Source of the DNA: Nevskiales bacterium
GTDB lineage: Bacteria; Pseudomonadota; Gammaproteobacteria; Nevskiales; DATLYR01
DNA: 39,661 nt
Direction: 5' to 3'
Assembly: GCA_035574475.1 (NCBI GenBank)
Contig: DATLYR010000025.1
Location: 1 to 39,661 of the forward strand
Under the pieces are notes generated by a model. The model did no database searches and was not told the DNA's origin. It saw only the letters and a program-made list of their open reading frames with translations. Below, in pieces: positions 9,889 to 36,100 of this stretch. Every line of letters begins with the position of its first letter. The stretch's first letter is position 1. The position numbers were made by a program, and so were the translations under genes.

Positions 9889-9960
9889 CGTCGCCCCGGC
9901 GCAAGCCAGGGTCCAGTGCCTTTTTAAAGTCGCTGGATTCCGGCTGTCGCCGGAATGACG
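9889..9960. repeat. REP-like element, family B
   Basis: Two hairpins, GCCCCGGCGCAAGCCAGGGT and ATTCCGGCTGTCGCCGGAAT, joined by GTCCAGTGCC and an A/T-rich spacer. The 3' end of the KSTD-type gene reads into it. Confidence 0.85.
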
Positions 9961-11660
9961 GACAAATCGTTCGTCATAATGCCCCTGGCCGCATTGGTTC
10001 CCGCCCGCCGTCCCGACCACAGGCAGTCCGCCAGCGACAGCCCGCTGACATATTTATTGGAGGCGATGCCCACCGCACAGCGGCCTGCGGCGTACAGCCC
10101 CGGGATCGTTCTGCCTTCCGCGTTCAGTACTGCGCCGGTCTGTTCGTCCACACGCAGCCCGCCCAGGGTGATGCTCGGGCAGGGGAAGGTCTTGTTGTCG
10201 ACCGAAATGTTCAGGGCGTAGTAAGGCGGGGTGTCCAGCGGCGCGCGCATGTCGTCGGCCTTGTTGAGCAAATCCGTCCGCCCCGCCTTGGCATCCTGGG
10301 TGTACTGCTCGATGCTGGCCTTGAGCGCGCGCGGCGGCAGGCCGATCTTCGCGGCCAGCGCCTCGGGTGTCTTCGCGCGCGGTGCGAACCCCATCAGGAA
10401 CAGCGCTGGCACGCTCTGGAAGAACCATAGCTTGCCGGACAGCGCCTCGCGCAGCGCGGCGCTGCGCAGCCTCTTGTCCAGGATCAGCCAGGCCTTGCCC
10501 TCGTTATGGTCCACCATCTCCACGCCCAGGCGTGCGCCGTAGACTTGCTCGTTGCAGAAGCGCTGCCCCTGGCGATTGACGACGATCCCCTTCGGCCAGG
10601 CCGTGGGCGGATTGATGAAGCGCCAGGCCGAGGCGGTACTCATGCGGTCCAGCGCACCACCCACCGAGGCGCCCAGGCGGATGCCACTTCCGTCGCAGCC
10701 GGTGGCGCCGAGGCGCATGGCCGGCAGGTACTTGGGCGCGTACTGGCGCAGCATCTCGCGGTTGAAGATGAAGCCGCCGGCGGACAGGATCACACCGCGC
10801 CGCGCGCGCACCAAAAGCGGCTGCGCCTCGGCCAGCTCGATCGCCAGCGCCTGGGCGCGCAGGCGGTCGGCGCGCCGCGGCGAAAAATTATGGATACGCT
10901 CGGCGCGCCGCATCAGGCGCTGGTGCCTGTGCGCAATGGGCGAGGCCGGCGGCAGCTGCCACACTTCCGCGCCGAGCACCGCGCCGGTCTTCGCGTCCGT
11001 GACCAGCCGCCGTACCGCGGATTGGCGCAGAACCGGGATGTTCTGTCGGGCGACTTCCTCGCGCAGCACGCGGTACAGCTCGCGACCGGAGTCGATGCCC
11101 GGCGCGCGCACCCGATGGCCGCGTGGCGCGGGCCGGGCCTGCGCCGCAAAGCTCGGTACGGCCTCGCTGCCGGAGTAATACAGGTACACGCCGTTGCGCG
11201 GGTAGGAGGTCTTGGGCGGCTTTTCGTAGGATTGAAACTCGACGCCGATCTTCTCCAGCCAGGCCAGCAGGTCGAGGCTGTCGTTGCAAAAGCGGCGCAG
11301 AGTGGCCTCACTCACCGCGTCGCCGGTTTCCTGGCGCAGGTACTTGAACATTTCCTCCGGTGTGTCGTCGTAGCCGGCTTCCTTCTGGTACTTCGTGCCG
11401 CCGCCCAGGTAGACCACGCCGCCGCTCTTCACGCTCGCGCCGCCGCCCTCGAAGCGCTCGGCGATGAGTACCCGGGCGCCGGCCTCCTGCGCGGCCAGCG
11501 CGGCGGCGCCGCCGGCGGCACCAAAGCCGACCACCAGCACGTCGCAGTCCTGCTGCCAGCCCAGGCTGTCGGGACTGTCCGTCGTCAGCGGCGCTTCGAT
11601 GGACAGGGTTCCGTCCTCACGCCGGGCCGGCGGGGTGTCGAGCGGGTTCTGATGCGGCAT
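9924..11660 (-). CDS. FAD-dependent oxidoreductase, 3-ketosteroid dehydrogenase family
   Basis: The product is about 578 aa. The FAD-binding Rossmann fold is DVLVVGFGAAGGAAALAAQ (40-58), followed by GGASVKSGGVVYLGGGT (72-88), a form of the SGG motif of fumarate reductase/KSTD flavoproteins. The C-terminal FAD contact is GLYAAGRCA and NKYVSGLSLADCLWSGRRAG. KSTD enzymes put a double bond into ring A (delta-1 or delta-4). The exact position cannot be told because the tyrosines of delta-1 KSTD are not clearly aligned. The ATG at 11660 is preferred; an upstream TTG at 11693 adds 11 residues. The last 12 residues (SVIPATAGIQRL) are encoded by a REP element, which also supplies the stop. Confidence 0.8.
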   Translation of the reverse strand: MPHQNPLDTPPARREDGTLSIEAPLTTDSPDSLGWQQDCDVLVVGFGAAGGAAALAAQEAGARVLIAERFEGGGASVKSGGVVYLGGGTKYQKEAGYDDTPEEMFKYLRQETGDAVSEATLRRFCNDSLDLLAWLEKIGVEFQSYEKPPKTSYPRNGVYLYYSGSEAVPSFAAQARPAPRGHRVRAPGIDSGRELYRVLREEVARQNIPVLRQSAVRRLVTDAKTGAVLGAEVWQLPPASPIAHRHQRLMRRAERIHNFSPRRADRLRAQALAIELAEAQPLLVRARRGVILSAGGFIFNREMLRQYAPKYLPAMRLGATGCDGSGIRLGASVGGALDRMSTASAWRFINPPTAWPKGIVVNRQGQRFCNEQVYGARLGVEMVDHNEGKAWLILDKRLRSAALREALSGKLWFFQSVPALFLMGFAPRAKTPEALAAKIGLPPRALKASIEQYTQDAKAGRTDLLNKADDMRAPLDTPPYYALNISVDNKTFPCPSITLGGLRVDEQTGAVLNAEGRTIPGLYAAGRCAVGIASNKYVSGLSLADCLWSGRRAGTNAARGIMTNDLSVIPATAGIQRL

Positions 11661-11728
11661 CTCGGGGTGCCTTGCGTGATAAGGTGCGGGCAAGACAGGC
11701 CCGCCAGGGCCTGCGGCCCGATGACGGG

Positions 11729-11771
11729 ATTATTTCGATCTGGCACGGACTAGCTTCGTCCGATGGGGTGA
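11729..11771 (-). promoter_or_regulatory. Candidate promoter module 1 (toward the KSTD-type gene)
   Basis: Read on the minus strand, the box TCACCCCATCGGACGAAGCT (11771-11752) is followed after 17 bp by AATAAT (11734-11729). It would start transcription near 11722, ahead of the KSTD-type gene. The box matches the plus-strand copy at 11807 in 16 of 20 positions. No normal TTGACA -35 is visible, so the box may bind an activator. Confidence 0.5.
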
Positions 11772-11824
11772 GAGTGCATGTTCCGCAGCGCTGTGGCGGC
11801 CCGCTCTCACCCCAACGGATGAAG
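11754..11824. repeat. Inverted repeat in the divergent promoter region
   Basis: CTTCGTCCGATGGGGTGAGA and its partner, 21-nt arms at 11754-11774 and 11804-11824, match at 19 of 21 positions with a 29-nt loop. The arms are the two oppositely oriented boxes of promoter modules 1 and 2. Confidence 0.75.
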
Positions 11825-11850
11825 AGGAAAGCGCGGCCGGCGCCAATAAT
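11807..11850 (+). promoter_or_regulatory. Candidate promoter module 2 (toward the dioxygenase-ipdAB operon)
   Basis: The box TCACCCCAACGGATGAAGAG (11807-11826) is followed after 18 bp by AATAAT (11845-11850). Transcription would start near 11857, about 31 nt before the dioxygenase start. The first 16 nt of the box form an imperfect dyad, TCAnCCnnnnGGnTGA, as expected for a dimeric regulator. Confidence 0.55.
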
Positions 11851-11887
11851 GCCTTCATCCAGAACGACATTCCCGAAGGCGGCTCTC

Positions 11888-12775
11888 ATGGCGAAAATCC
11901 AGGCGCTGGCGTACATCGTGGCCGAGTCCACGGACCTTGCGAAGTGGCGGCAATACGGCGAGCAGGTGCTGGGCATGTCCGCACAGGACGTCGGCGAGGC
12001 GCTGGCGCTGAAGATGGACGAGCGTCACGGCCGCATCCTGGTGGTGAAGAGCGGCGCCGACCGTTACCACGCCTCCGGCTGGGAGCTGCCGGACGAGGCC
12101 GCGTTCAAGGACACGGTCGCCGCGCTCGAGCGGGCCGGGGTGGTCGTCAGTGATGGCAGCGAGGCCGAGCGCAGGCTGCGCGGCATGAAGGGTCTGGCCG
12201 TGTTCACCGATCCGGCCGGCAACCGCCACGAGCTGTGCTGGGGCTATGAGGGCGCCACCGCGCCGTTCAAGTCGCCGGTCGGCGTGTCCGGTTTCAAGAC
12301 CGGTATCTACGGCCTCGGGCATACCGTGCTGCCGGCCATTCCCTTCGACGACACGCTCAAGCTGTTCCGCGACGTGCTCGGCTTCGGCCTGTCGGACGTG
12401 TTCAACTTCAAGCCGGCGCCGGATGCGCCGGTGATGCGCATCTATTTCCTGCACGCGGCCAGCGGCCGTCATCACAGCCTGGCGCTGGCCGAGATGCCGA
12501 GCCCGGCCGGTTGCGTGCACATGATGGTGGAAGTGAACTCCATGACCGAGGTCGGCCTGGCGCACGACCGCATGCAGAAGGCCGGCATCAAGCTCATGGC
12601 GACGCTCGGCCAGCACGAGAACGACAAGATGACCTCGTTTTACATGATGACGCCAGGCAACTTCGCCATCGAATACGGCTGGGGCGGTCTGATCGTGGAG
12701 CCGGGCAAATGGCAGACCACCGAGACCCGACAGGTCTCGATCTGGGGCCACGATTTCTCCGTCGGCTTCCGCTAG
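11888..12775 (+). CDS. hsaC: Type I extradiol dioxygenase, HsaC/TesB-like
   Basis: The product is 295 aa, with two VOC modules, the usual length for BphC/HsaC/TesB enzymes. The iron ligands of the second half are visible: His145 in YGLGHTVL, His211 in GCVHMMVEV and Glu262 in FAIEYGWGG, matching the known ligands of HsaC almost position for position. HsaC opens the aromatised steroid ring A by meta-cleavage of 3,4-DHSA. The start at 11888 gives the canonical N-terminus; the longer open frame upstream is not family-like. It lies 9 bp before ipdA, so a ring-A enzyme is co-transcribed with ring-C/D genes. Its usual partners HsaA, B and D are absent from the window. Confidence 0.88.
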   Translation: MAKIQALAYIVAESTDLAKWRQYGEQVLGMSAQDVGEALALKMDERHGRILVVKSGADRYHASGWELPDEAAFKDTVAALERAGVVVSDGSEAERRLRGMKGLAVFTDPAGNRHELCWGYEGATAPFKSPVGVSGFKTGIYGLGHTVLPAIPFDDTLKLFRDVLGFGLSDVFNFKPAPDAPVMRIYFLHAASGRHHSLALAEMPSPAGCVHMMVEVNSMTEVGLAHDRMQKAGIKLMATLGQHENDKMTSFYMMTPGNFAIEYGWGGLIVEPGKWQTTETRQVSIWGHDFSVGFR

Positions 12776-12784
12776 GCCAGGGAG

Positions 12785-13681
12785 ATGGCGCTCAACAAGG
12801 AAATGACGGCCGCGCAGGTCGTCGCGCAACTGCGCGACGGCATGACGATCGGCATCGGCGGCTGGGGCCCGCGCCGCAAGCCGATGGCGATCGTGCGCGA
12901 AATCCTGCGCTCGCCGCTGAAAGACCTCACCGTCGTCGGCTACGGCGGCCCCGACATGGGCATGCTCTGCGCCGCCGGCAAGGTGAAGAAACTCATCTAC
13001 GGCTTCGTGTCGCTGGATTTCATTCCGCTGGAGCCTTTTTTCCGCAAGGCGCGCGAGGCGGGCAGCATCGAGGCCATGGAGCTGGACGAAGGCCAGCTGC
13101 AGTGGGGGCTGCGTGCCGCTGCCATGCGTCTGCCCTTCCTGCCCACACGCGTGGGGCTGGCCACCGACCAGCTGACCAAGATCAACCCCGGCCTGCGTAC
13201 CGTGACCTCGCCTTATGAAGACGGCGAGGTGCTGCTGGCGATGCCCGCGCTGAATCTCGACGTCGCGCTGGTGCACGTGCACCGCGCCGACCGGTGCGGC
13301 AACACGCGGCTGTACGCGCCGGACCCGTTTTTCGATGAACTCTTTGCGCGCGCCGCCGAGCGCTGCTACGTGAGCTGCGAGGAACTGGTGGACAGGCTGG
13401 CCACCGACGAGGCCGACGCCCAGCGCAATCCCTTCGAGCGCAACCTGGTGAACGGCGTGATACTGACACGCGGCGGCGCACACCCGACCTCGAACGTTTC
13501 CATCAACGGCGGCGGCTACGGCTGGGATGCCGCGCATCTCAAGCGCTACTGCAACGCGGCCGAAGAAGAAGGCGGCTGGGCGAAGTACGCCGCGGAGTTC
13601 CTGGGCGCGAGCGAGGCCGATTACCAGGCGGCGGTCGGCGGGCTGGACAGGATTCTCGCATTGCCAAGGCAGGTGATGTGA
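12785..13681 (+). CDS. ipdA: IpdA, CoA transferase-like hydrolase subunit A
   Basis: The product is 298 aa, a class I CoA transferase alpha-type subunit with GMTIGIGGWGPRRKPMAIV (19-37) near the start. IpdA and IpdB together open ring C of the steroid-derived CoA ester COCHEA-CoA in Mycobacterium and Rhodococcus; they act as a hydrolase and not a true CoA transferase. Glu102 in LDEGQ is at about the position of the essential Glu of IpdA, but I have not aligned it. The ATG at 12785 has only AGGGAG directly against it; ATG 12803 is an alternative start. ipdB follows after a gap filled with two REP-like hairpins. Confidence 0.88.
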   Translation: MALNKEMTAAQVVAQLRDGMTIGIGGWGPRRKPMAIVREILRSPLKDLTVVGYGGPDMGMLCAAGKVKKLIYGFVSLDFIPLEPFFRKAREAGSIEAMELDEGQLQWGLRAAAMRLPFLPTRVGLATDQLTKINPGLRTVTSPYEDGEVLLAMPALNLDVALVHVHRADRCGNTRLYAPDPFFDELFARAAERCYVSCEELVDRLATDEADAQRNPFERNLVNGVILTRGGAHPTSNVSINGGGYGWDAAHLKRYCNAAEEEGGWAKYAAEFLGASEADYQAAVGGLDRILALPRQVM

Positions 13682-13704
13682 TGAGTGGGTTTATTCGATT
13701 TGGC

Positions 13705-13808
13705 ACCCCTATCCCAACCCTTCCCCCTCGAGGGGGAAGGGGTAAGAGTGTCCGTCCCCGGGGTCCGTGTTCCCTCCCCCTTGATGGGGGAGGGCTAGGG
13801 TGGGGGTG
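13705..13808. repeat. Two REP-like palindromes, family A, between ipdA and ipdB
   Basis: Two family A hairpins, CTTCCCCCTCGAGGGGGAAG and CTCCCCCTTGATGGGGGAG, lie in tandem. The second ends GGGGGTG, three bases before the ipdB ATG, so its 3' edge may act as the ipdB ribosome binding site. Confidence 0.85.
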
Positions 13809-13811
13809 CGC

Positions 13812-14609
13812 ATGAGCACCTCCGATTTCACCCTCGCCGAGCTGCTGATCTGCGCCTGCGCCGACGTCTGGCGCGAGGACGGCGAAGTGCTGGCCACCGG
13901 CATCGGCATCATCCCGCGTATTGCCCAGGGCCTGGCCAAGCTCACGCACAGCCCGGAGCTGCTCATCACCGACGGCGAGGCCTTCCTCACCGAGGAGCCG
14001 GTCGTGATCGGCGCCAGGAACCATGACGGCCGCACCTATGCCGGCTGGATGCCGTACGCGCGTGTGTTCGATCTCTTGTGGCGCGGGCGCCGGCATGCGC
14101 TGGTCGGCCCTGTGCAGGTGGATCGCTGGGGCCAGGCCAACATCTCCTGCATCGGCGATTTCGGTAAACCCAAACGCCAGATGCTCGGCCTGCGCGGCTT
14201 CCCCGGCAACAGCATCAACCACGTGAATTCGATGTTCGTGCCCAACCACGGCCCACGCGTGTTCGTCGAGGGCGAAGTGGACGTGGTCTGCTCGGTCGGC
14301 TATCGCAAGGAGCGCTGGCCCAGGGGCGTGAAGAGCGACTACGCGCGCATCCACCGCATCGTCACCGACCTGTGCGTGATGGACTTCGGCGGCCCCGAGC
14401 ATGCGATCCGCGTCATCAGCCTGCATCCGGGCGTGAGCTTCGAGCAGGTGCAGGGCGCCACCGGCTTCCCCTTGCTGAGGGCCGACGATCTGGGCGAGAC
14501 CGCGCATCCGACGGAAGAACAACTCGCGATCATCCGCAGACTCGACCCGCACGACATGCGCGCGAAGCAGCTGAAGGACAATCCCCCCGGCATCCGGAGG
14601 GCGTCATGA
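13812..14609 (+). CDS. ipdB: IpdB, CoA transferase-like hydrolase subunit B
   Basis: The product is 265 aa, a class I CoA transferase beta-type subunit. Characteristic segments are LPSVDRWG-like VGPVQVDRWGQANISCIGDF, LRGFPGNSINHVN and DYARIHRIVTDLCVMDF. It forms the ring-C-opening complex with IpdA. The ATG at 13812 follows the REP-derived GGGGGTG closely. The next gene (DUF35) begins 103 bp later, across a family B REP element. The pairing with IpdA in the same operon makes this assignment strong. Confidence 0.88.
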   Translation: MSTSDFTLAELLICACADVWREDGEVLATGIGIIPRIAQGLAKLTHSPELLITDGEAFLTEEPVVIGARNHDGRTYAGWMPYARVFDLLWRGRRHALVGPVQVDRWGQANISCIGDFGKPKRQMLGLRGFPGNSINHVNSMFVPNHGPRVFVEGEVDVVCSVGYRKERWPRGVKSDYARIHRIVTDLCVMDFGGPEHAIRVISLHPGVSFEQVQGATGFPLLRADDLGETAHPTEEQLAIIRRLDPHDMRAKQLKDNPPGIRRAS

Positions 14610-26165: not shown

Positions 26166-26268
26166 GCTCTCTCTATGCCCTTTCCCGAACGAGTTCCGTC
26201 AGGGTCACCAGCGGTCGTCCCAAAGGGTGAGTACCGCGGTGCCAGGATTCGAGGAGAATGAAACAAAC

Positions 26269-26318: not shown

Positions 26319-27458
26319 ATGAACTTCGCCCTCACAGACGACCAGGCGATGATCCGCGACGCGGCGGCGGGTTTCCTCGCCGACGCGAGCAACTCCGCGG
26401 CCGTGCGCAGGGCGATGGCGAGCGCGGAGGGTTTCGACGTCGCCGTGTGGCAGCGCATCGGCGGCGAGCTGGGCTGGTGCGGGGTGGCGATCGACGAGGC
26501 CCACGGCGGCATGGGCCTGGGCCCGGTGGAGCTGGTGCTGATCCAGGAGCAGGCCGGTCGGCGGCTGCTGTGCGCGCCGTTTTATTCCAGCGTGTGCGTC
26601 GGGGCGCCGCTGTTGCAGGAGCTGGCCACCGATGCCGCGCAGGCCAAGTACCTGCCGCGAATCGCGGCGGGCACGCTGCGCACGGCGGTGCCGACCTACG
26701 GCGCGATCGAGGAGTGGGTGGCCGAAGCCTCGCACCTGCACGCACGGGCCGTGGGCAAGGGCTGGGTGCTGGAGGGCGAGCTGCATTACCTGATGGATGG
26801 CGCCTCTGCCGACCTGCTGTTGGTTTACGGCAAGCTGGATGACGGTGGGCTGGGCTTGTTCGCAGTGCCACGCACCGCGAGAGGCGTGGTGGTCACGTCG
26901 CTCAAGACCTGGGACCCGACTCGACGTTTTGCGGACGTGAAGTTCGCGGGCGTGACGGCGGGCGAGCGCATCGACGATCCGGCGCGCGTGGACGCGGGCG
27001 TGCTGCGCATGGCCTCGCTGGCGCGTCTGTACCTGGCGGCAGAGCAGCTGGGCGGCGCGCAACAGTGCCTGGACATGACGGTGGAATACACCGCCGGCCG
27101 CAAGCAGTTCGGTCGGCCGGTGGCGGGCTTCCAGGCGGTCAAGCATCGCTGCGCGCAGATGATGGTGCAGGTCGAGTCGCTGCGCTCGGCCGTGTATGGC
27201 GCGGCGGCGCTCGCGGCCGGCGCAGTGGATACGGAGGCCCTGGCGCTGGAATGCGCCATGGCCAAGGCAATGGCGTCGGAGGCGTTTTTCTTCTGCGCGC
27301 AGGAGGCGATCCAGCTGCACGGCGGCGTGGGCTTCACCTGGGAATACGACCCGCATCTGTACTTCAAGCGTGCGCAGGCGAGCAGCCACTGGCTGGGCAC
27401 AGCGGAACAACTGCGCGAGCGCATGGCGCAGCTGCTGCTGGACAGCCCGGCGGCCTGA
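26319..27458 (+). CDS. Acyl-CoA dehydrogenase, small-subunit type
   Basis: The product is 379 aa. It starts MNFALTDDQAMIRDAAAGFL, and the FAD-contact half is EYTAGRKQFGRPVAGFQAVKH with LHGGVGFTWEYDPHLYFKRA. It lacks the SEPGAGSD loop of the large-subunit type, like the gene at 19915. It is a candidate partner of the large-subunit-type gene at 28518, although an AbrB-Doc module lies between them. It was probably once next to that gene. In Mycobacterium the FadE31-33 cluster shows the same use of paired genes. Confidence 0.87.
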   Translation: MNFALTDDQAMIRDAAAGFLADASNSAAVRRAMASAEGFDVAVWQRIGGELGWCGVAIDEAHGGMGLGPVELVLIQEQAGRRLLCAPFYSSVCVGAPLLQELATDAAQAKYLPRIAAGTLRTAVPTYGAIEEWVAEASHLHARAVGKGWVLEGELHYLMDGASADLLLVYGKLDDGGLGLFAVPRTARGVVVTSLKTWDPTRRFADVKFAGVTAGERIDDPARVDAGVLRMASLARLYLAAEQLGGAQQCLDMTVEYTAGRKQFGRPVAGFQAVKHRCAQMMVQVESLRSAVYGAAALAAGAVDTEALALECAMAKAMASEAFFFCAQEAIQLHGGVGFTWEYDPHLYFKRAQASSHWLGTAEQLRERMAQLLLDSPAA

Positions 27459-28317: not shown

Positions 28318-28362
28318 TCACCCCAACGGATGAAGAGCCGGGCCGCGCTTACTGCCCATAAT
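28318..28362 (+). promoter_or_regulatory. Candidate promoter module 3 (toward fadE30-ipdF)
   Basis: The box TCACCCCAACGGATGAAGAG (28318-28337), identical to that of module 2, is followed after 19 bp by CATAAT (28357-28362). CATAATGGGCTC is repeated 14 bp further on (28371-28382). The module is about 180 bp upstream of the fadE30-like gene, with a REP element in the leader. Confidence 0.55.
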
Positions 28363-28382: not shown

Positions 28383-28427
28383 AATTCACAAGAAAAAGCC
28401 TGTACTGCTCCGCGTCATCGGGTTTCT

Positions 28428-28496
28428 GTCATTCCGGCGCAAGCCGGAATCCAGTGCCTTCAAAGACGCTGGACCCCGGCTTGCGCCGGGGTGACG
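28428..28496. repeat. REP-like element, family B
   Basis: ATTCCGGCGCAAGCCGGAAT and ACCCCGGCTTGCGCCGGGGT with CCAGTGCC between. It lies in the predicted leader of the fadE30-like transcript. Confidence 0.85.
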
Positions 28497-28517
28497 GATC
28501 AAGAGGGTACTGACTGC

Positions 28518-29699
28518 ATGAGGCTCGAGCTGACCCCCGAGGACGAGGCCTTCCGCGCCGAAATCGCGGCGTGGCTGCGCGCGCACCTGGTCGGGCGCTT
28601 TGCGGTTTGCAAGCACCGTGGCGGGCCGGGCGACGAGGCGTTCCAGCCCGCGCTGCGCAAGGAGTGGGAGCGCGAGCTGGCCAAGGGCGGCTGGACCTGC
28701 GTGGGCTGGCCCAAGGAATACGGCGGGCGCGGGCTGTCGATCGCGCAGCAGGTGATCTACCACGAGGAATACGCGCGCGCCGGCGGTCCGGGGCGGATGG
28801 GCCACATCGGCGAGGGCCTGATCGGCCCGGCATTGATACGCTTCGGCTCCGAGGCGCAGAAGCGTCGCTTCCTGCCGAAGATCGTTTCGGGCGAGGAATA
28901 CTGGGCGCAGGGCTATTCCGAGCCCGGCGCCGGCTCGGACCTGGCCAACGTACAAACGAAGTGCTGGCAGGAAGCGGACGGCAGCTGGCGCGTGAGCGGG
29001 CAGAAGATATGGACCTCCAACGCGCACGAGTCCGACTGGATCTTCGTGCTCGCGCGTTGCGAGCCGGGTTCCAGGGGCCACAAGGGCCTGGCCTTCCTGT
29101 TGCTGCCGCTCAGGCAAACCGGTATCGAGATCCGCCCGATCCGGCAGATGTCCGGCGGCGCGGAGTTCAACGAGGTCTTCTTCGACGGCGCGCGCGCGGA
29201 GGCCGAGCACATCGTCGGCGCGCCCGGCGACGGTTGGAAGGTGGCGATGGGCCTGTTGGAGAGCGAGCGCGGCGTGTCCACGCTCGGCCAGCAGATGCAT
29301 TTCGCGTACGAACTCGAGCTGGTGATCCAGGCGGCACGCGCCAATGGCAAGGTCAACGATCCGATGATCCGCCAGCGCCTGATGCAGGCCTGGGGCGGGC
29401 TGCGGGTGATGCGCTACAACGCGCTGCGCATGCTGTCGGGCGAGGCCACGCGCCTGAACCGCGAGGCGCTCATCTACAAGTACTACTGGAGCAACTGGCA
29501 CCGCGAGCTCGGCAAGCTCGCCGCCGACGTGCTCGGGCACCAGGCCGACGTGGTGTCCGACGACCCGGCCATCCGCCCGCTGCAGCAGATGTTTTTCTTC
29601 TCGCGCGCGGACACGATCTACGCCGGCACCAACGAGATCCAGCTCAACCTGATCGCCGAACGGGGCCTGGGCATGCCGAAGGAGCCGAGGCCCGCATGA
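28518..29699 (+). CDS. fadE30: FadE30-like acyl-CoA dehydrogenase
   Basis: The product is 393 aa, starting MRLELTPEDEAFRAEIAAWL. SEPGAGSD is present (WAQGYSEPGAGSDLA), as is the C-terminal IYAGTNEIQLNLIAERGLG. As in the gene at 18599, the YEGT catalytic Glu is Ala. In Mycobacterium FadE30 lies next to ipdF and desaturates the HIP side chain; here the next gene is an IpdF match, with a 4-bp overlap (ATGA), so the assignment is likely. A partner subunit gene at 26319 lies across the AbrB-Doc module. Confidence 0.85.
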   Translation: MRLELTPEDEAFRAEIAAWLRAHLVGRFAVCKHRGGPGDEAFQPALRKEWERELAKGGWTCVGWPKEYGGRGLSIAQQVIYHEEYARAGGPGRMGHIGEGLIGPALIRFGSEAQKRRFLPKIVSGEEYWAQGYSEPGAGSDLANVQTKCWQEADGSWRVSGQKIWTSNAHESDWIFVLARCEPGSRGHKGLAFLLLPLRQTGIEIRPIRQMSGGAEFNEVFFDGARAEAEHIVGAPGDGWKVAMGLLESERGVSTLGQQMHFAYELELVIQAARANGKVNDPMIRQRLMQAWGGLRVMRYNALRMLSGEATRLNREALIYKYYWSNWHRELGKLAADVLGHQADVVSDDPAIRPLQQMFFFSRADTIYAGTNEIQLNLIAERGLGMPKEPRPA

Positions 29700-30484
29700 G
29701 TACACCTGCCCCACCCTACGTCCCCGCCCATGGCCTGCTGCAGGGCAAGACCGTGCTGGTCACCGCCGCGGCTGGCGGCGGGATTGGTTTTGCCACCGCC
29801 AGGCGCGTGCTGGAAGAAGGCGCCCGTGCGCTGGTGATCTCCGACATCCACGAGCGGCGCCTGGGTGAGGCAGTGGCGAAGCTGCAGCAGGAATTTGCCG
29901 GCCGCCGCATCGAGGGCAAGCTGGCCAACGTCACGAACGAGGCCGAGGTGCAGGCACTGGTGGATTTCGCGGAAAGCGTGACCAACGGCGTGGACGTGCT
30001 GGTAAACAACGCCGGGCTGGGCGGCAGCAAGCGCGTGGTCGATATGCTCGATGAGGAATGGCACAAGGTGCTGGACGTCACCCTGACCGGCACCTTCCGC
30101 ATGACGCGCGCGATGCTCAGGAAAATGCAGCCGCGCGGCAAGGGCGTGATCGTGAACAACGCCTCGGTGCTGGGCTGGCGCGCGCAGAAGGAGCAGGCGC
30201 ACTACGCCGCGGCCAAGGCCGGCGTGATGGCGCTGACACGCTGCGCCGCGCTGGAGGCGGCCGAGCATGGCGTGCGCATCAATGCGGTGTCGCCCTCGAT
30301 CGCCTTCCACGAGCACCTGAAGAAGACTGCCTCGGCCGAGCTGCTGGAACAGCTGGCCAGCCGCGAGGCCTTCGGCCGCGCGGCCGAGGTGTGGGAGATC
30401 GCCAACGTCATTGTTTTTCTGGCGAGCGATTACAGCTCGTATCTGACGGGCGAGGTGATTTCTGCCTCGAGCCAGCATCCGTGA
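29696..30484 (+). CDS. ipdF: IpdF-like SDR (hydroxyacyl dehydrogenase of the HIP pathway)
   Basis: The product is 262 aa. The segments TAAAGGGIGFATARR, VLVNNAGLGG and VIVNNASVLGWRAQKEQAHY, then EAFGRAAEVWEIANVIVFLA and the ending SSYLTGEVISASSQHP, match what I recall of IpdF (Rv3559c). IpdF oxidises the hydroxyl group on the C/D-ring acid. The glycine-rich loop TAAAGGGIG is a variant of TGxxxGxG. Its ATG overlaps the fadE30 stop by ATGA. It is followed by a family C repeat and the MaoC gene. Confidence 0.87.
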   Translation: MSTPAPPYVPAHGLLQGKTVLVTAAAGGGIGFATARRVLEEGARALVISDIHERRLGEAVAKLQQEFAGRRIEGKLANVTNEAEVQALVDFAESVTNGVDVLVNNAGLGGSKRVVDMLDEEWHKVLDVTLTGTFRMTRAMLRKMQPRGKGVIVNNASVLGWRAQKEQAHYAAAKAGVMALTRCAALEAAEHGVRINAVSPSIAFHEHLKKTASAELLEQLASREAFGRAAEVWEIANVIVFLASDYSSYLTGEVISASSQHP

Positions 30485-30519
30485 AGATGCACGGGGCGCT
30501 GCCAGTGATCCGGCAAAGA

Positions 30520-30594
30520 GTCGCGAACAGGGTTCGCTCCTACATAAGAGCGATGGCTAAAGGGGTTTTGTAGGAGCGCGCCTGCGCGCGAATG
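30520..30594. repeat. REP-like element pair, family C
   Basis: GGTTCGCTCCTACA and TTTTGTAGGAGCGCGCCTGC with GCGCGAAT form an inverted pair, a BIME-like arrangement. It fills the gap between ipdF and the MaoC gene. Confidence 0.75.
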
Positions 30595-30603
30595 GGGACT
30601 GAC

Positions 30604-31062
30604 ATGGCGACGATATTTAATTCCGCAGACGAGATCCTGAAATCCGTCGGCAAGCCGCTCGGCGAGAGCGAGTGGATGACGATCACGCAGGAGCGCATCG
30701 ACCAGTTCGCCGACGCGACCGACGACCACCAGTGGATCCACGTGGACCCCGTGAAGGCCAAGGCCGGGCCCTTCGGTACGACCATCGCGCACGGCTACCT
30801 CACGCTGTCACTGTGCAGCCGTTTCCTGCCGCAGATCGTCGAGGTGCGCGGCATGAAGATGGGCGTGAACTATGGCTGCAACAAGGTGCGCTTCCCCGCA
30901 CCGGTACGCGCCGGCAGCCGCATCCGCGGCAAGGGCGAAATGATCGCCGCCGAGAAGACGCCGGACGGCGGCGTGCAAGCCATGATCCGCGTGACCGTGG
31001 AGGTCGAGGGGCAGTCCAAGCCGGGCTGCGTGGCGGACACCATCAGCCGCTATTACTTTTGA
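30604..31062 (+). CDS. MaoC-like (R)-specific enoyl-CoA hydratase
   Basis: The product is 152 aa, a single hotdog domain. The hydratase-2 motif is DATDDHQWIHVDPVKA, with catalytic Asp41 and His46, and GPFGTTIAHGYLTLSL after it. These enzymes hydrate enoyl-CoA in the (R) sense, a step otherwise done by crotonases. It is close to HtdZ-type MaoC proteins of Mycobacterium. The start at 30604 fits the family N-terminus; the upstream ORF extension is repeat-derived. It follows ipdF and precedes a thiolase, a natural beta-oxidation order. Confidence 0.86.
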   Translation: MATIFNSADEILKSVGKPLGESEWMTITQERIDQFADATDDHQWIHVDPVKAKAGPFGTTIAHGYLTLSLCSRFLPQIVEVRGMKMGVNYGCNKVRFPAPVRAGSRIRGKGEMIAAEKTPDGGVQAMIRVTVEVEGQSKPGCVADTISRYYF

Positions 31063-31069
31063 TGGGCGT

Positions 31070-31132
31070 TTGTAGGAGCGGGCCTGCTCGCGACTCTTTG
31101 CGCTGTTATCGCGTGCAAGGCAGGCGCCTACA
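31070..31132. repeat. REP-like element pair, family C
   Basis: TTTGTAGGAGCGGGCCTGCT with CGCGAC, and the opposite-facing GGCAGGCGCCTACA. It fills the gap between the MaoC and thiolase genes. Confidence 0.75.
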
Positions 31133-31150
31133 TCCGGAACAGAGGTCTCG

Positions 31151-32356
31151 ATGAACGAAGCCGTCATCGTCTCTATCGCCCGCACCCCGATCGGCAAGGC
31201 CTATCGCGGCGCCTTCAACGACACCGAGGCGCCGGTGCTCGGCGGCCACGTGGTGCGTGCGGTGGTAGAGCGCGCCGGCGTGAATCCGGCCGAGGTGGAC
31301 GACGTGCTGATCGGCTGCGCGGCACAGCAGGGCACCCAGGCCTACAACCTGGGTCGGCTCTGCGCCTATACCGGCGGGCTGCCGGATACCGTGCCGGGCA
31401 TGACGCTGGACCGGCAATGTTCCTCGGGCCTGCAGACCATCGCGATTGCCGCGAAGAACATCATGGCCGGCGAGCAGGACATCGTCGTCGCCGGTGGGCT
31501 GGAGTCCATTTCGCTGGTGCAGAACAAGCACAAGAACAGCTACCGCTTCGTGTCCGAGGCGGTACTGGCGGCGATGCCGACCGCCTACATCCAGATGATC
31601 GAGACTGCCGAGGTGGTGGCCGAGCGTTACGGAATCAGTCGCGCCGCGCAGGACGAGTATTCGCTGCAGAGCCAGCAGCGCACGGCGGCGGCGCAGGCGG
31701 CCGGGAGGTTCGACGATGAGATCGTCCCGCTCACCACGCAGAAGCAGCTGTTCGACAAGGAAGGCAACCCGACCACGAAGGAAACCGTCACGCTGGCCAG
31801 GGACGAGGGCAACCGTCCCGACACCACGCTGGAATCGCTCGCGAACCTGAAGCCCGTCTGGAAGGACGGCAAGTTCGTGAAGCAGGGGGCGCACATCACC
31901 GCCGGCAATGCCTCGCAGCTGTCGGACGGCGCCGCAGCGGTGCTCGTGACGAGCGCGAAGACCGCGAAGGCGCGCGGCCTTGCGCCGCTCGGCATCTACC
32001 GCGGTTTCGCGGTGGCCGGCTGCAGGCCGGACGAGATGGGCATCGGCCCGGTGTACGCGGTGCCCAAGCTGCTGGCGCAGCACAATTTGAAGGTCTCCGA
32101 CATCGGCCTGTGGGAGCTGAACGAGGCCTTCGCGGTGCAGGTGATCTACTGCCGTGACCGCCTCGGCATCCCGAACGATCGTTTGAACGTGAACGGCGGC
32201 GCGATCAGCATCGGTCATCCCTTCGGCATGAGCGGCGCGCGCATGGTGATGCACGCGCTGGTCGAGGGCCGCCGCCGCGGCGTGAAGTACGTGGTGGTGA
32301 CCATGTGTATAGGCGGCGGCATGGGCGCCGCGGGCTTGTTCGAGGTGGCCGGCTGA
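31151..32356 (+). CDS. Acetyl-CoA acyltransferase (thiolase)
   Basis: The product is 401 aa. The catalytic triad is Cys90 in [10 protein letters not shown], His356 in [10 protein letters not shown] and Cys386 in MCIGGGMG. Residues around 118-150 include an insertion, [12 protein letters not shown], typical of FadA-type thiolases with broad substrate range. It is clearly different from FadA6 at 21137. It probably cleaves beta-ketoacyl-CoA made by FadE30 and the MaoC hydratase. Its stop codon lies inside the stem of a perfect hairpin. Confidence 0.88.
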
Positions 32357-32444: not shown

Positions 32445-32569
32445 AGGATGAAAACCCGCGTGCTTGCACGAGTGCGGAGTGGCAGGCGAGACTGGCCCGG
32501 CGAGTGGAACGACCGCAAACGGCCGCGAGAGCCGTCGTAACCAGAGCGTGATTGGGAGGAGACATCTCC

Positions 32570-33673
32570 ATGACTGAAAAGCAAATCCCGGCGTCGGCCG
32601 GCGCGAACGATGGGATCGCGGCGATGCTGGCACAGGGTTGGGCCGGCTGGGCGGTGGTGACGCTGGTGGTGCTGGTGTCCGTGTACTCGTTCTCGCCGCG
32701 TCCCGAGCCTGATTTCCCGCCGAGCGGGCTCAAGTCCGACCGCGTGCTGCTCAACGACGCCGCGCTCGACGCCGGCCGCGTGATTGCCGTGGGCGAGCAG
32801 GGCGTGATCCTGCTGGCGGACGATCCACGCGGGCCCTGGCGCCAGGCGAGTGTCAGGACCCCGCGCGGTTCGACGCTCACGCGAGTGATGTTCCTGGACG
32901 GCGGTGTGGCCATCGCAGTGGGCCACGACAGCTGGATCCTGCGCAGCACCGACCAGGGCAGCAACTGGCAGGAGGTCCACTTCGACCCCGAGCGCTCCGA
33001 GCCGCTGCTGGGTCTGGCCGGGCCCTATGACGGCCGGCTGTACGCCTTCGGCGCCTTCGGCCAGTTCTTCGTATCGCAGGACAACGGCCTGAACTGGCAG
33101 CGCGAAACCCTGGTCGAGGAGGGCGCCGCGCCCAAGCCGGTGGTGACGTCCACCGACCCGGCCGACATCTTCGCGGGCGCCGCCGACATCGGCGGCGGCC
33201 TGGGCGAGTCGCACCTCAACGACATGACGCGTGCGGGCGACGGCGCGCTGATCCTGGTCGGCGAGCGCGGGCTCGTCGCCCGCTCCACCAATGGCGGCGC
33301 CAGCTGGCGCGTCGTGCCGCAGTTCTACAGCGGTTCGTTCTACGGCGTGATGACGCTGGGCTCGGGCCGCCTGCTGGTGCACGGCATGCGCGGCCATGTG
33401 TTCTACAGCGACGACCATGGCCGCAGCTGGAAGCCGGCCAAGGTGCCGCTGGCCAACTCGCTGTTCGGCGGTACGGTGCTGCGCAACGGCGACATCATCC
33501 TGGTCGGCGCCAGCAATACCATGCTGCTGTCGCGCGACAACGGCGCCAGCTTCGTCAGCGTCGCGAAGAAAGGGCCGCACGGCCTGGCGTCCGTGCTGGC
33601 GTTCGAGAGCGGAGAGCTGCTCAAGATCGGCGAGGGGGGGCTATCCCTGGTTCGCCTGGGCCAGGGCCATTAG
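32570..33673 (+). CDS. YCF48/BNR-repeat beta-propeller protein
   Basis: The product is 367 aa. A membrane helix near the N-terminus (about 22-45, GWAGWAVVTLVVLVSVYSF) anchors it, and the rest is a beta-propeller of YCF48-like BNR repeats, seen as repeated SxDxGxxW units: STDQGSNWQE, SQDNGLNWQ, STNGGASWRV, SDDHGRSWK and SRDNGASFV. Such propellers are often paired with MMPL/RND transporters in steroid and terpene degraders. Here the RND gene follows at once (24-bp gap). A role as periplasmic partner or lid for the transporter is inferred. GGAGGAG precedes the start by 11 bp. Confidence 0.82.
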   Translation: MTEKQIPASAGANDGIAAMLAQGWAGWAVVTLVVLVSVYSFSPRPEPDFPPSGLKSDRVLLNDAALDAGRVIAVGEQGVILLADDPRGPWRQASVRTPRGSTLTRVMFLDGGVAIAVGHDSWILRSTDQGSNWQEVHFDPERSEPLLGLAGPYDGRLYAFGAFGQFFVSQDNGLNWQRETLVEEGAAPKPVVTSTDPADIFAGAADIGGGLGESHLNDMTRAGDGALILVGERGLVARSTNGGASWRVVPQFYSGSFYGVMTLGSGRLLVHGMRGHVFYSDDHGRSWKPAKVPLANSLFGGTVLRNGDIILVGASNTMLLSRDNGASFVSVAKKGPHGLASVLAFESGELLKIGEGGLSLVRLGQGH

Positions 33674-33697
33674 TCGGCTAGCGGGGGGAGATTACGC

Positions 33698-36100
33698 ATG
33701 AACGAACCCAACAAGGCATCGCAGGGCGGTCAGCCGGGCGGACTGCAGGCGCTGGTGGATCGCTGGAGCCACGGCCTGATCCGGCAGCGCCGCAAGTTCG
33801 CGCTCCTGTTCGCGCTCATCACCGTGCTGATGGCTGCCAGCGCCAGCCAGGTGCGACTGGATCCGGGATTCCTGAAGCTGATCCCGACCACGCACCCCTA
33901 CATGCAGACCATGATCGAGTACATGGACGAGTTCTCCGGCGCCAACACCATCCTGGTGAATCTGCGCTGGAAGGGCAAAGGCGACATCTACAACGAAGAG
34001 TTCATGCTCGCGTTGCAGAACGCTACCGACGACGTGTTCTTCATCCCGGGCATCAATCGCACGCGCGTCAATTCGCTGTTCACGCCCAACACCTACTACA
34101 TCGAGATCACCGAGGACGGCTTCGACGGTAAACCCGTCGTGCCGGCCGAGTTCTCGCGCACGCCGGAGCAGCTGGCACAGGTGCGCAGCAACGTCGAGAA
34201 CTCCGGCCAGATCGGCCTGCTGGTCGCCAACGACCTCAAGGGCTCTCTGATCCGCGCCGACCTGCTCGAGTACGATCGCAGCAAGCCGCGTGGCGAGCAG
34301 AAGGTGGACTACTGGGAGGTGCAGAAAAAACTGGAGGAAATCCGCGCCAAGTACGAGAACGAGAACATCGAGGTCCACATCATCGGCTTCGCCAAGCTTC
34401 TGGGCGACGTGATCAATGGCCTGCTCGGCGTGTTCGCATTCTTTGCGCTGGCCTTCCTGGTTACCGTCGCCTTGCTGTACTGGTACACGCGCTCCTGGCG
34501 CATCACCGGCACGGCGCTGGTGGTGGCCATGCTGCCGGTGCTGTGGCTGATCGGCTGCCTGCCGCTGATCGGCTACGGCATCGACCCGATGTCGATCCTG
34601 GTGCCGTTCCTGATCTTTGCCATCGGCGTGTCACACGCGGTGCAGATGACCAGCGTCTGGCGCACCGAGGTGATGAGCGGCCTGGAGTCGGGCGAGGCTG
34701 CCAGCCGCGCCTTCTCGAGCCTGTTCATCCCGGGGACCACCGCACTGCTGACCGACGGCCTGGGTTTCGCCGTGATCATGCTGATCGACATCCCGATCGT
34801 GCACGAGCTGGGCATCACCGCCAGCCTGGGCATCCTGCTGATGATCATCACCAACAAGATGATCCTGCCGATCATCCTCAGCTACCTGACGCTGGAAGAA
34901 TCCAGCAAGCGCCACTCCGAGAACGCGCTGTTCGACGAGGGTTCGCCGCTGCTCAGGATCGTGTCGGCCTGCGCCGAGAAGCGCGTGTCCTGGCTGGTGT
35001 TCGCCGGCACCCTCGTGCTGCTGGGCTTCGCCACTTGGCAGTCGCGCTTGCTGGTGGTCGGCGATTCCGGCACCGGCGTGCCCGAGCTGCACGAGGACTC
35101 GCGCTACAACATGGACAGCCGAGCCATCGCCAGCAGCTACAACATCGGCGTGGATCTGTTGACCGTCATCGTCGAGGCCAAGGACTTCCCCACCGACTCC
35201 TGCCTGCAGTACCCGGTGATCAACCTGATCGACCGCTTCGAGTTGTACATGCGCGGGGTGGAGGGCGTACAGTCGGTGACCAGCGTGGCTGGCATCGGCA
35301 AGCTGGTGATCGCCGCCTTCAACGAGGGTAACCCTCGCTGGCGGGCGTTGCCGCGCACCGAGGTCGGCCTGTCCACCGGTTCCAAGGCCTTCGACCCGAA
35401 CCTAGGCTTCAATACCGAGGGCTGCCGCGCGATCCAGGTAATGATCTTCACCAAGGACCACGAGGGCGCGACCATCGCCCACATCGTCAAGGAGATCAAG
35501 AAGTTCATCGCCGAGAACCAGGTCGAAGGCGTGACCATGCGCCTGGCCAGCGGCAACGTGGGCGTGATGGCCGCGACCAACGAGGCGGTGGGCGCCGCAG
35601 AGCTGAAGATGCTGCTGTCGTTGTTCGCGGCGCTGGTGGTCTTCTGCCTGCTGTCGTTCCGTTCCTGGATCGCCACGCTGTGCGTGCTGGTGCCGCTGAC
35701 GCTGGTCACGGTGATGTGCAACGGCCTGATGGCCTTTCTCGACATCGGCCTGAAGACTGCGACCCTGCCGGTGATCGCGCTGGGCGTCGGCGTGGGCGTG
35801 GACTACGGCCTGTACCTGTTCGAGCGCGTGCAGCACTACATGGCCGATCCCAAGGTGCAGTTCAAGGAAGCCTTCGTGAACAGCATGCGCGAGCGCGGCG
35901 CGGCCGCGGTGTTCACGGCCTTCACCATGTCCATTGGCGTGATGACCTGGACCATGTCGGCGCTCAAGTTCCAGGCCGACATGGGGCTGCTGCTGGCCTT
36001 CATGTTCCTGGTCAACGTGTTCGGCGCCATCTGCCTGTTGCCGGCGCTGGCCTGCTGGATCTACCGCCAGAAGGGCCGCGTCGCAACCGACATCTCGTAG
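33698..36100 (+). CDS. MMPL/RND-superfamily transporter
   Basis: The product is 800 aa, in two halves. The first membrane helix is about 34-52, then a large periplasmic domain, then a bundle of helices from about residue 245 to 400. The second half repeats this, with the motif GVGVGVDYGLYLFERVQHY near 690 (the proton-relay Asp of MmpL-type proteins) and the matching FAIGVSHAVQMTSVWR near 308. It resembles hopanoid, lipid and steroid-associated RND proteins; I cannot tell import from export. It probably forms one transcript with the YCF48-like gene. A perfect GC hairpin lies just past the stop. Confidence 0.85.
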   Translation: MNEPNKASQGGQPGGLQALVDRWSHGLIRQRRKFALLFALITVLMAASASQVRLDPGFLKLIPTTHPYMQTMIEYMDEFSGANTILVNLRWKGKGDIYNEEFMLALQNATDDVFFIPGINRTRVNSLFTPNTYYIEITEDGFDGKPVVPAEFSRTPEQLAQVRSNVENSGQIGLLVANDLKGSLIRADLLEYDRSKPRGEQKVDYWEVQKKLEEIRAKYENENIEVHIIGFAKLLGDVINGLLGVFAFFALAFLVTVALLYWYTRSWRITGTALVVAMLPVLWLIGCLPLIGYGIDPMSILVPFLIFAIGVSHAVQMTSVWRTEVMSGLESGEAASRAFSSLFIPGTTALLTDGLGFAVIMLIDIPIVHELGITASLGILLMIITNKMILPIILSYLTLEESSKRHSENALFDEGSPLLRIVSACAEKRVSWLVFAGTLVLLGFATWQSRLLVVGDSGTGVPELHEDSRYNMDSRAIASSYNIGVDLLTVIVEAKDFPTDSCLQYPVINLIDRFELYMRGVEGVQSVTSVAGIGKLVIAAFNEGNPRWRALPRTEVGLSTGSKAFDPNLGFNTEGCRAIQVMIFTKDHEGATIAHIVKEIKKFIAENQVEGVTMRLASGNVGVMAATNEAVGAAELKMLLSLFAALVVFCLLSFRSWIATLCVLVPLTLVTVMCNGLMAFLDIGLKTATLPVIALGVGVGVDYGLYLFERVQHYMADPKVQFKEAFVNSMRERGAAAVFTAFTMSIGVMTWTMSALKFQADMGLLLAFMFLVNVFGAICLLPALACWIYRQKGRVATDIS

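Follow-up and report, generated by a model that had tools for sequence, protein, structure and literature searches.

The window analyzed here is the whole 39,661-nucleotide stretch of contig DATLYR010000025.1 from a Nevskiales bacterium, whose genome is a 2.86-Mb draft; genes were called from open reading frame length and codon-position G+C, without a gene finder. On the minus strand, positions 9924–11660 encode a KSTD-type FAD-dependent 3-ketosteroid dehydrogenase (Pfam FAD_binding_2, E=4e-45), with the start inferred at the ATG at 11660; the C-terminus of this protein (SVIPATAGIQ) looks as if it were read from a REP-like repeat. Divergently, on the plus strand, an HsaC/TesB-type extradiol dioxygenase gene (11888–12775; Pfam BphC_D1 and Glyoxalase; orthologues 60–70% identical) is followed by ipdA and ipdB, of the CoA-transferase type (12785–14609), and then by more ring-degradation genes until approximately 23261. 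Farther along the same strand lie an acyl-CoA dehydrogenase gene (ACAD_c, 26319–27458) and an operon of acyl-CoA dehydrogenase, MaoC-type hydratase and thiolase genes (28491–32356). Toxin-antitoxin-like genes (ORF6N, RelB, CcdA/CcdB, Fic and MazE-type) are scattered among the acyl-CoA dehydrogenase genes between 23351 and 28373, and at 32552–36100, beside the steroid genes, a BNR/YCF48-type protein is encoded ahead of an MMPL-family transporter, with a putative role in steroid uptake or efflux.

The gap between the dehydrogenase and dioxygenase genes contains two boxes separated by 35 bp. Box 1, on the minus strand at 11754–11771, reads TCACCCCATCGGACGAAG(CT) from 11771 to 11754 and consists of the inverted repeat TCACCC-CATC-GGACGA (11756–11771) plus AG (box-model match, E=4.8e-6); 17 bp past its 20-mer stands the -10 hexamer AATAAT of the KSTD-type gene promoter (11729–11734, minus), with a predicted start near 11722. 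Box 2, on the plus strand at 11807–11824, reads TCACCCCAACGGATGAAG(AG) and consists of the inverted repeat TCACCC-CAAC-GGATGA (11807–11822) plus AG (E=2.8e-7); the AATAAT of the hsaC promoter (11845–11850, plus) lies 18 bp past its 20-mer, with a predicted start near 11857. A sequence-only reading of this DNA had described two boxes pointing apart, matching in 16 of 20 positions and followed by the same AATAAT, and direct reading of the sequence agrees exactly, including the 16 identical positions of the two 20-mers. With the start sites so assumed, the dyad centers fall at about -41.5 for box 1 and -42.5 for box 2. A sigma-54-like string, TGGCACG, near 11741 was dropped by eye, as its second element is misplaced.

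Allowing up to three mismatches, TCACCCCAWCGGAYGAAG has three matches in the window, all with zero mismatches, where shuffled sequences lead to an expectation of 0.12. The third, which the sequence-only reading had not listed, is an exact copy of TCACCCCAACGGATGAAG at 28318–28335 on the plus strand (box-model E=2.2e-6), with CATAAT 21 bp downstream, and it precedes the operon at 28491–32356. Between this copy and the gene, an inverted repeat with 36-bp arms, REP-like (TCATTCCGGCGCAAGCCGGAATCCAG...), spans 28425–28498 and makes the leader longer; similar sequence occurs on contig C34 of the same genome. A more degenerate palindrome search recovered a fourth, more diverged operator, TCGTCC-CAAA-GGGTGA, at 26215–26230 (plus), with GAGAAT 23 bp past the palindrome and the acyl-CoA dehydrogenase gene at 26319–27458 downstream. 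The window total is therefore four sites, standing before kstD, hsaC-ipdAB and two acyl-CoA dehydrogenase genes. ACAD_c and ACAD_d each have a box of their own in the window; in several relatives the two genes lie next to each other behind a single one.

Aligned sites yielded the consensus TCAYCCCAWCGGAYGAAG, which, written as a dyad, is the 16-bp inverted repeat TCRYCC-N4-GGRYGA followed by a trailing AG or TG. Its conservation was evaluated on a set of 41 hsaC upstream regions (40 Nevskiales orthologues and the window) that had been chosen regardless of the box. In 40 of the 41, a box occurs 54–99 bp before the start, and 39 carry it with at most two mismatches, a level reached in 0.2% of shuffles. 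The box is therefore conserved beyond the surrounding DNA, which is the check on orthologous gaps that the sequence-only reading had called for. More broadly, boxes with at most two mismatches were found in 63 of 100 relatives, well over the reversed control, and the combined pattern of box and -10 hexamer gave 22 sites in 18 of the 85 genomes of the order, compared with none for its reversed control. Across these genomes the box precedes orthologues of hsaC, kstD, acyl-CoA dehydrogenases, an SDR, an enoyl-CoA hydratase and a reductase resembling KshB; it stands upstream of KSTD orthologues in approximately 14 other loci, and before orthologues of the acyl-CoA dehydrogenase gene at 26319–27458 in approximately 12 relatives. 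A scan of named public genomes covering approximately 85,000 species placed all Nevskiales matches beside steroid genes and none of the non-Nevskiales matches there. Elsewhere in the window's own genome, the predicted regulon further includes kshA, with the box-like TCACTCAAACGGGTGATG approximately 66 bp before its likely ATG, hsaF (locus L094), an SDR gene with a SnoaL-type gene behind it (C34:19216), and an acyl-CoA dehydrogenase gene on contig C208. Boxes 1 and 2 are real copies of a symmetric DNA element, a probable switch, that recurs before steroid-degradation genes across Nevskiales.

The position of the box with respect to the -10 hexamer was examined in 43 non-redundant boxes with at most one mismatch, picked without selecting on the hexamer. 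At least five of the six GATAAT positions were matched 19–21 bp past the box in 29 of them, whereas 19 control offsets gave between zero and two. At almost every KSTD site, box and hexamer are 19 bp apart, and GATCGAAATAAT is common to several genomes. Measured from the dyad, the distance to the hexamer (GATAAT or AATAAT) is 22–23 bp, and the box-to-hexamer distance spans a 3-bp range across sites; given a start 6–7 bp past the -10, the dyad is centered near -42. It had also been observed that the box occupies the place of a -35 element without being TTGACA. This observation is borne out in the 41 hsaC upstream regions, where the match to TTGACA at 16–18 bp spacing averages 1.7 of 6 positions, below the background of 2.25, and no -35 element is visible by this scoring. 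In class II activator-dependent promoters, the operator lies near -41.5 and stands in for the -35; the StyR site at about -40 is one example (PMC2442086). The layout at these promoters is predicted to be that of a class II activator-dependent sigma-70 promoter, because the dyad sits near -42 at a near-fixed distance from the -10 and the match to TTGACA is poor. The earlier suggestion of either an activator or a special promoter class thus gains support from the Nevskiales-wide occurrence of the box before steroid genes and from the missing -35.

The first hint of a regulator came from five unrelated non-Nevskiales genomes, in which a GerE-domain gene lies directly past a box-like palindrome. 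In unrelated bacteria (L168, L174, L200, L210 and L212), such palindromes directly precede genes whose GerE-domain products differ in architecture, and they may be an autoregulatory site shared within a wider group of LuxR proteins. The stretches of steroid clusters that were fetched first contained no regulator gene conserved across loci. The window's own genome carries seven GerE genes, and the DNA-binding domain of one product resembles, by eye, two of the palindrome-adjacent GerE proteins. This LuxR/GerE protein of approximately 400 aa is encoded among steroid genes on contig C92 (G000:C92:1837-2973, locus L254), divergent from the ketosteroid isomerase gene ksi, and it adjoins ksi, kshA (KshA_C, E=1e-74), hsaA and a second kstD-type gene. 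A C-terminal GerE helix-turn-helix is recognized at 27.6 and 32.2 bits in two homologues; the C92 protein itself scores 26.1 bits for it in the genome search and 22.2 bits when taken as a single protein, the latter just under the Pfam cut-off of 23.5. Pfam detects no receiver domain in it, and its N-terminal part gives only a weak PAS-like match. No relative of solved structure came up in the Protein Data Bank when it was searched with a profile of the aligned regulators, and NCBIfam gave no specific name.

Orthologues of the C92 protein are present in 45 of the 85 genomes of the order, at 65–84% identity and at 42% in one genome (G024). The model of box plus -10 finds a match at E≤0.015 in 44 of the 45 regulator-bearing genomes and in none of the other 40, a line that was drawn after seeing the results and above which, from 0.0156 up, a few regulator-less genomes match. 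The Fisher p value of this co-occurrence is 1.4e-23, uncorrected for the relatedness of genomes of the same order. The 43 genomes with a close hsaC orthologue are all among the 45 that have the regulator, so that box, regulator and pathway co-occur near-perfectly and the profile alone cannot separate a box that follows the regulator from one that follows the pathway. The genome with the 42% identical regulator, probably Fontimonas thermophila (G024, locus L276), has the best-scoring box of the order, which suggests that its regulator was replaced or diverged fast while the operator was kept.

The gap between the regulator gene and ksi provides a further site. The ksi protein aligns in 28 of 30 loci examined, and a box-type palindrome is exact in the gap in 22 of the 30, compared with 0.27% of shuffles. 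As a control, the first 600 bases of the regulator gene were searched in the 30 loci and contained no such palindrome; one permuted half-site control matched 13 of the 30 regulator loci. The most symmetric form of the element, TCGTCCGNNCGGACGA, sits in this gap. On its ksi side, a hexamer with at least four of six GATAAT positions follows at 22–23 bp in most loci, and in the window's own genome the arrangement is TCGTCCGCTCGGACGA, 22 bp, GAAGAT, with the ATG 58 bp past the palindrome. The palindrome could serve ksi alone. What the analysis adds to the sequence-only reading is, then, that the box is an inverted repeat, that extra copies exist, and that its distribution follows that of a LuxR/GerE-type regulator gene, which has a palindrome of its own.

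While motif, geometry, gene context and co-occurrence with the regulator gene were computed directly, binding, activation and ligand are inferred for the C92 protein. We consider it highly probable that the boxes are operators of a dimeric LuxR/GerE activator of the TesR/TeiR kind, encoded on contig C92, which would serve kstD and hsaC-ipdAB back to back. A dimer of the regulator would bind the 16-bp dyad TCRYCC-N4-GGRYGA centered near -42 and contact the adjacent sigma-70 RNA polymerase, replacing the missing -35 by class II activation. A steroid or steroid metabolite would be sensed through the N-terminal part of the protein, upon which both promoters would switch on, the minus-strand one driving kstD and the plus-strand one hsaC-ipdAB. 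Further genes served by this operator would be kshA, hsaF, ksi, the SDR operon and the window's two acyl-CoA dehydrogenase genes.

The other readings of the box fare considerably worse. The best of them, itself improbable, is repression, in which a protein bound to the box would mask the -35 region until a steroid metabolite releases it, as happens with KstR and KstR2. A dyad over the -35 region suits steric repression, and mycobacterial steroid genes are under TetR-type repressors (PMC6678751). However, there is no usable -35 behind the box, the near-fixed spacing to the -10 would be unneeded for repression, and the gene that co-occurs with the box is of the LuxR/GerE type. Known systems point the same way, as TesR is described as a positive regulator (PMC13101464) and, according to a review, bile-acid-degrading Proteobacteria lack homologues of KstR (PMC8399759).

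Slightly less probable still is a LuxR-type operator bound by another GerE protein of the genome, either one of 317 aa (contig C26) or one of 372 aa (contig C38). Both are encoded in the genome, and one is conserved at 45–67% in most of the order. The 317-aa protein, however, has strong orthologues in the box-less family f4 and is missing from the box-bearing genomes G076, G016, G051 and G080, the 372-aa protein has no strong orthologues, and neither is found beside steroid genes in the loci examined. Both were dropped as the regulator on account of mismatched distribution and context. The 317-aa protein (G000:C26:1423-2373, L136) is often encoded beside a TolC-like gene and shows no steroid link.

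We regard it as very unlikely that an alternative sigma factor uses the box as its -35 element, together with an ATAAT -10. The conserved distance from box to -10 would fit such a promoter, and variation of 1–2 bp in spacing is normal among sigma promoters. Against it, an ECF-sigma factor would call for an asymmetric -35 element, whereas the box is an inverted repeat, most symmetric at the regulator-ksi gap; the palindrome also stands in front of GerE genes in unrelated genomes, and the -10 is sigma-70-like. Finally, that boxes 16/20 identical and 35 bp apart arose by chance or local duplication and lack regulatory meaning is hardly credible, since the box-to-hexamer spacers are unrelated, other contigs carry copies before genes that are not homologous, and the result across the order lies far past chance, the 41-region hsaC test refuting this reading.

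The preferred activator most likely resembles TesR, and a LuxR-type activator of this kind is most likely what binds the box. Outside the order, strong homologues of the C92 protein were found in one genome (G306, two copies) among 369 drawn from the class. They are 37–39% identical, and the 37% one, in another family, ends an hsaC-ipdA-ipdB-...-thiolase cluster. In Comamonas testosteroni, the tesB-to-tesR cluster has been described with tesR at its end (PMC13101464). It is by this synteny and by the 37–39% identity to the G306 homologues, and not by the TesR sequence itself, that the C92 protein is most likely TesR-like. Both in the window's own genome and in G306, a LuxR-type protein has its gene among those for steroid catabolism, as is characteristic of TesR/TeiR. 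In G306, palindromes with one or two deviations were found at two places, upstream of one copy of the regulator gene (L275:8583) and within the tesB-tesR-like cluster (L274:13898). Both have a -10-like hexamer 22 bp away that matches 4 of 6 positions; the numbers are too small for a family-wide claim, and no palindrome was seen directly before the hsaC orthologue of that genome. It is conceivable, if somewhat doubtful, that TCRYCC-N4-GGRYGA serves as operator throughout the TesR/TeiR family, and that steroid catabolism of the Comamonas type in other Proteobacteria would be switched by direct binding as well.

StyR, which governs styrene catabolism in Pseudomonas fluorescens ST, has a GerE-type DNA-binding domain; its half-site sequence differs from that of the box, and it is phosphorylated by a sensor kinase. 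As a response regulator, it is unlike the C92 protein, in which Pfam detects no receiver. The two systems share an inverted-repeat site at about -40 from the start, which for StyR is essential for activation (PMC2442086). TesR/TeiR of C. testosteroni shares with the C92 protein the LuxR/GerE C-terminal domain and a gene within the steroid cluster; it is required for induction, with a kinase-activity mode proposed, and TeiR has been described as a polar membrane protein acting via kinase activity (PMC6678751), whereas the C92 protein is predicted to bind a defined operator directly. KstR and KstR2 of mycobacteria govern regulons for steroid catabolism with a comparable set of genes (PMC6678751), but are TetR repressors, of another protein family, while the box operator is placed for activation. 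The protein family of the regulator is thus known; its DNA site and the extent of its regulon appear undescribed, as the literature searched held no operator for TesR/TeiR and no earlier account of this operator or regulon, with subscription papers mostly outside its scope and a published site therefore possible.

According to a 2021 review, regulation of bile-acid breakdown in Proteobacteria is largely unknown, and P. stutzeri Chol1 has two TeiR-like genes (PMC8399759). With an operator defined, the promoter architecture complete and a single candidate regulator to hand, this question of regulation can be tested directly. The operator also lets the steroid regulon be listed from sequence alone, and operator and regulator together could supply parts for a steroid biosensor.
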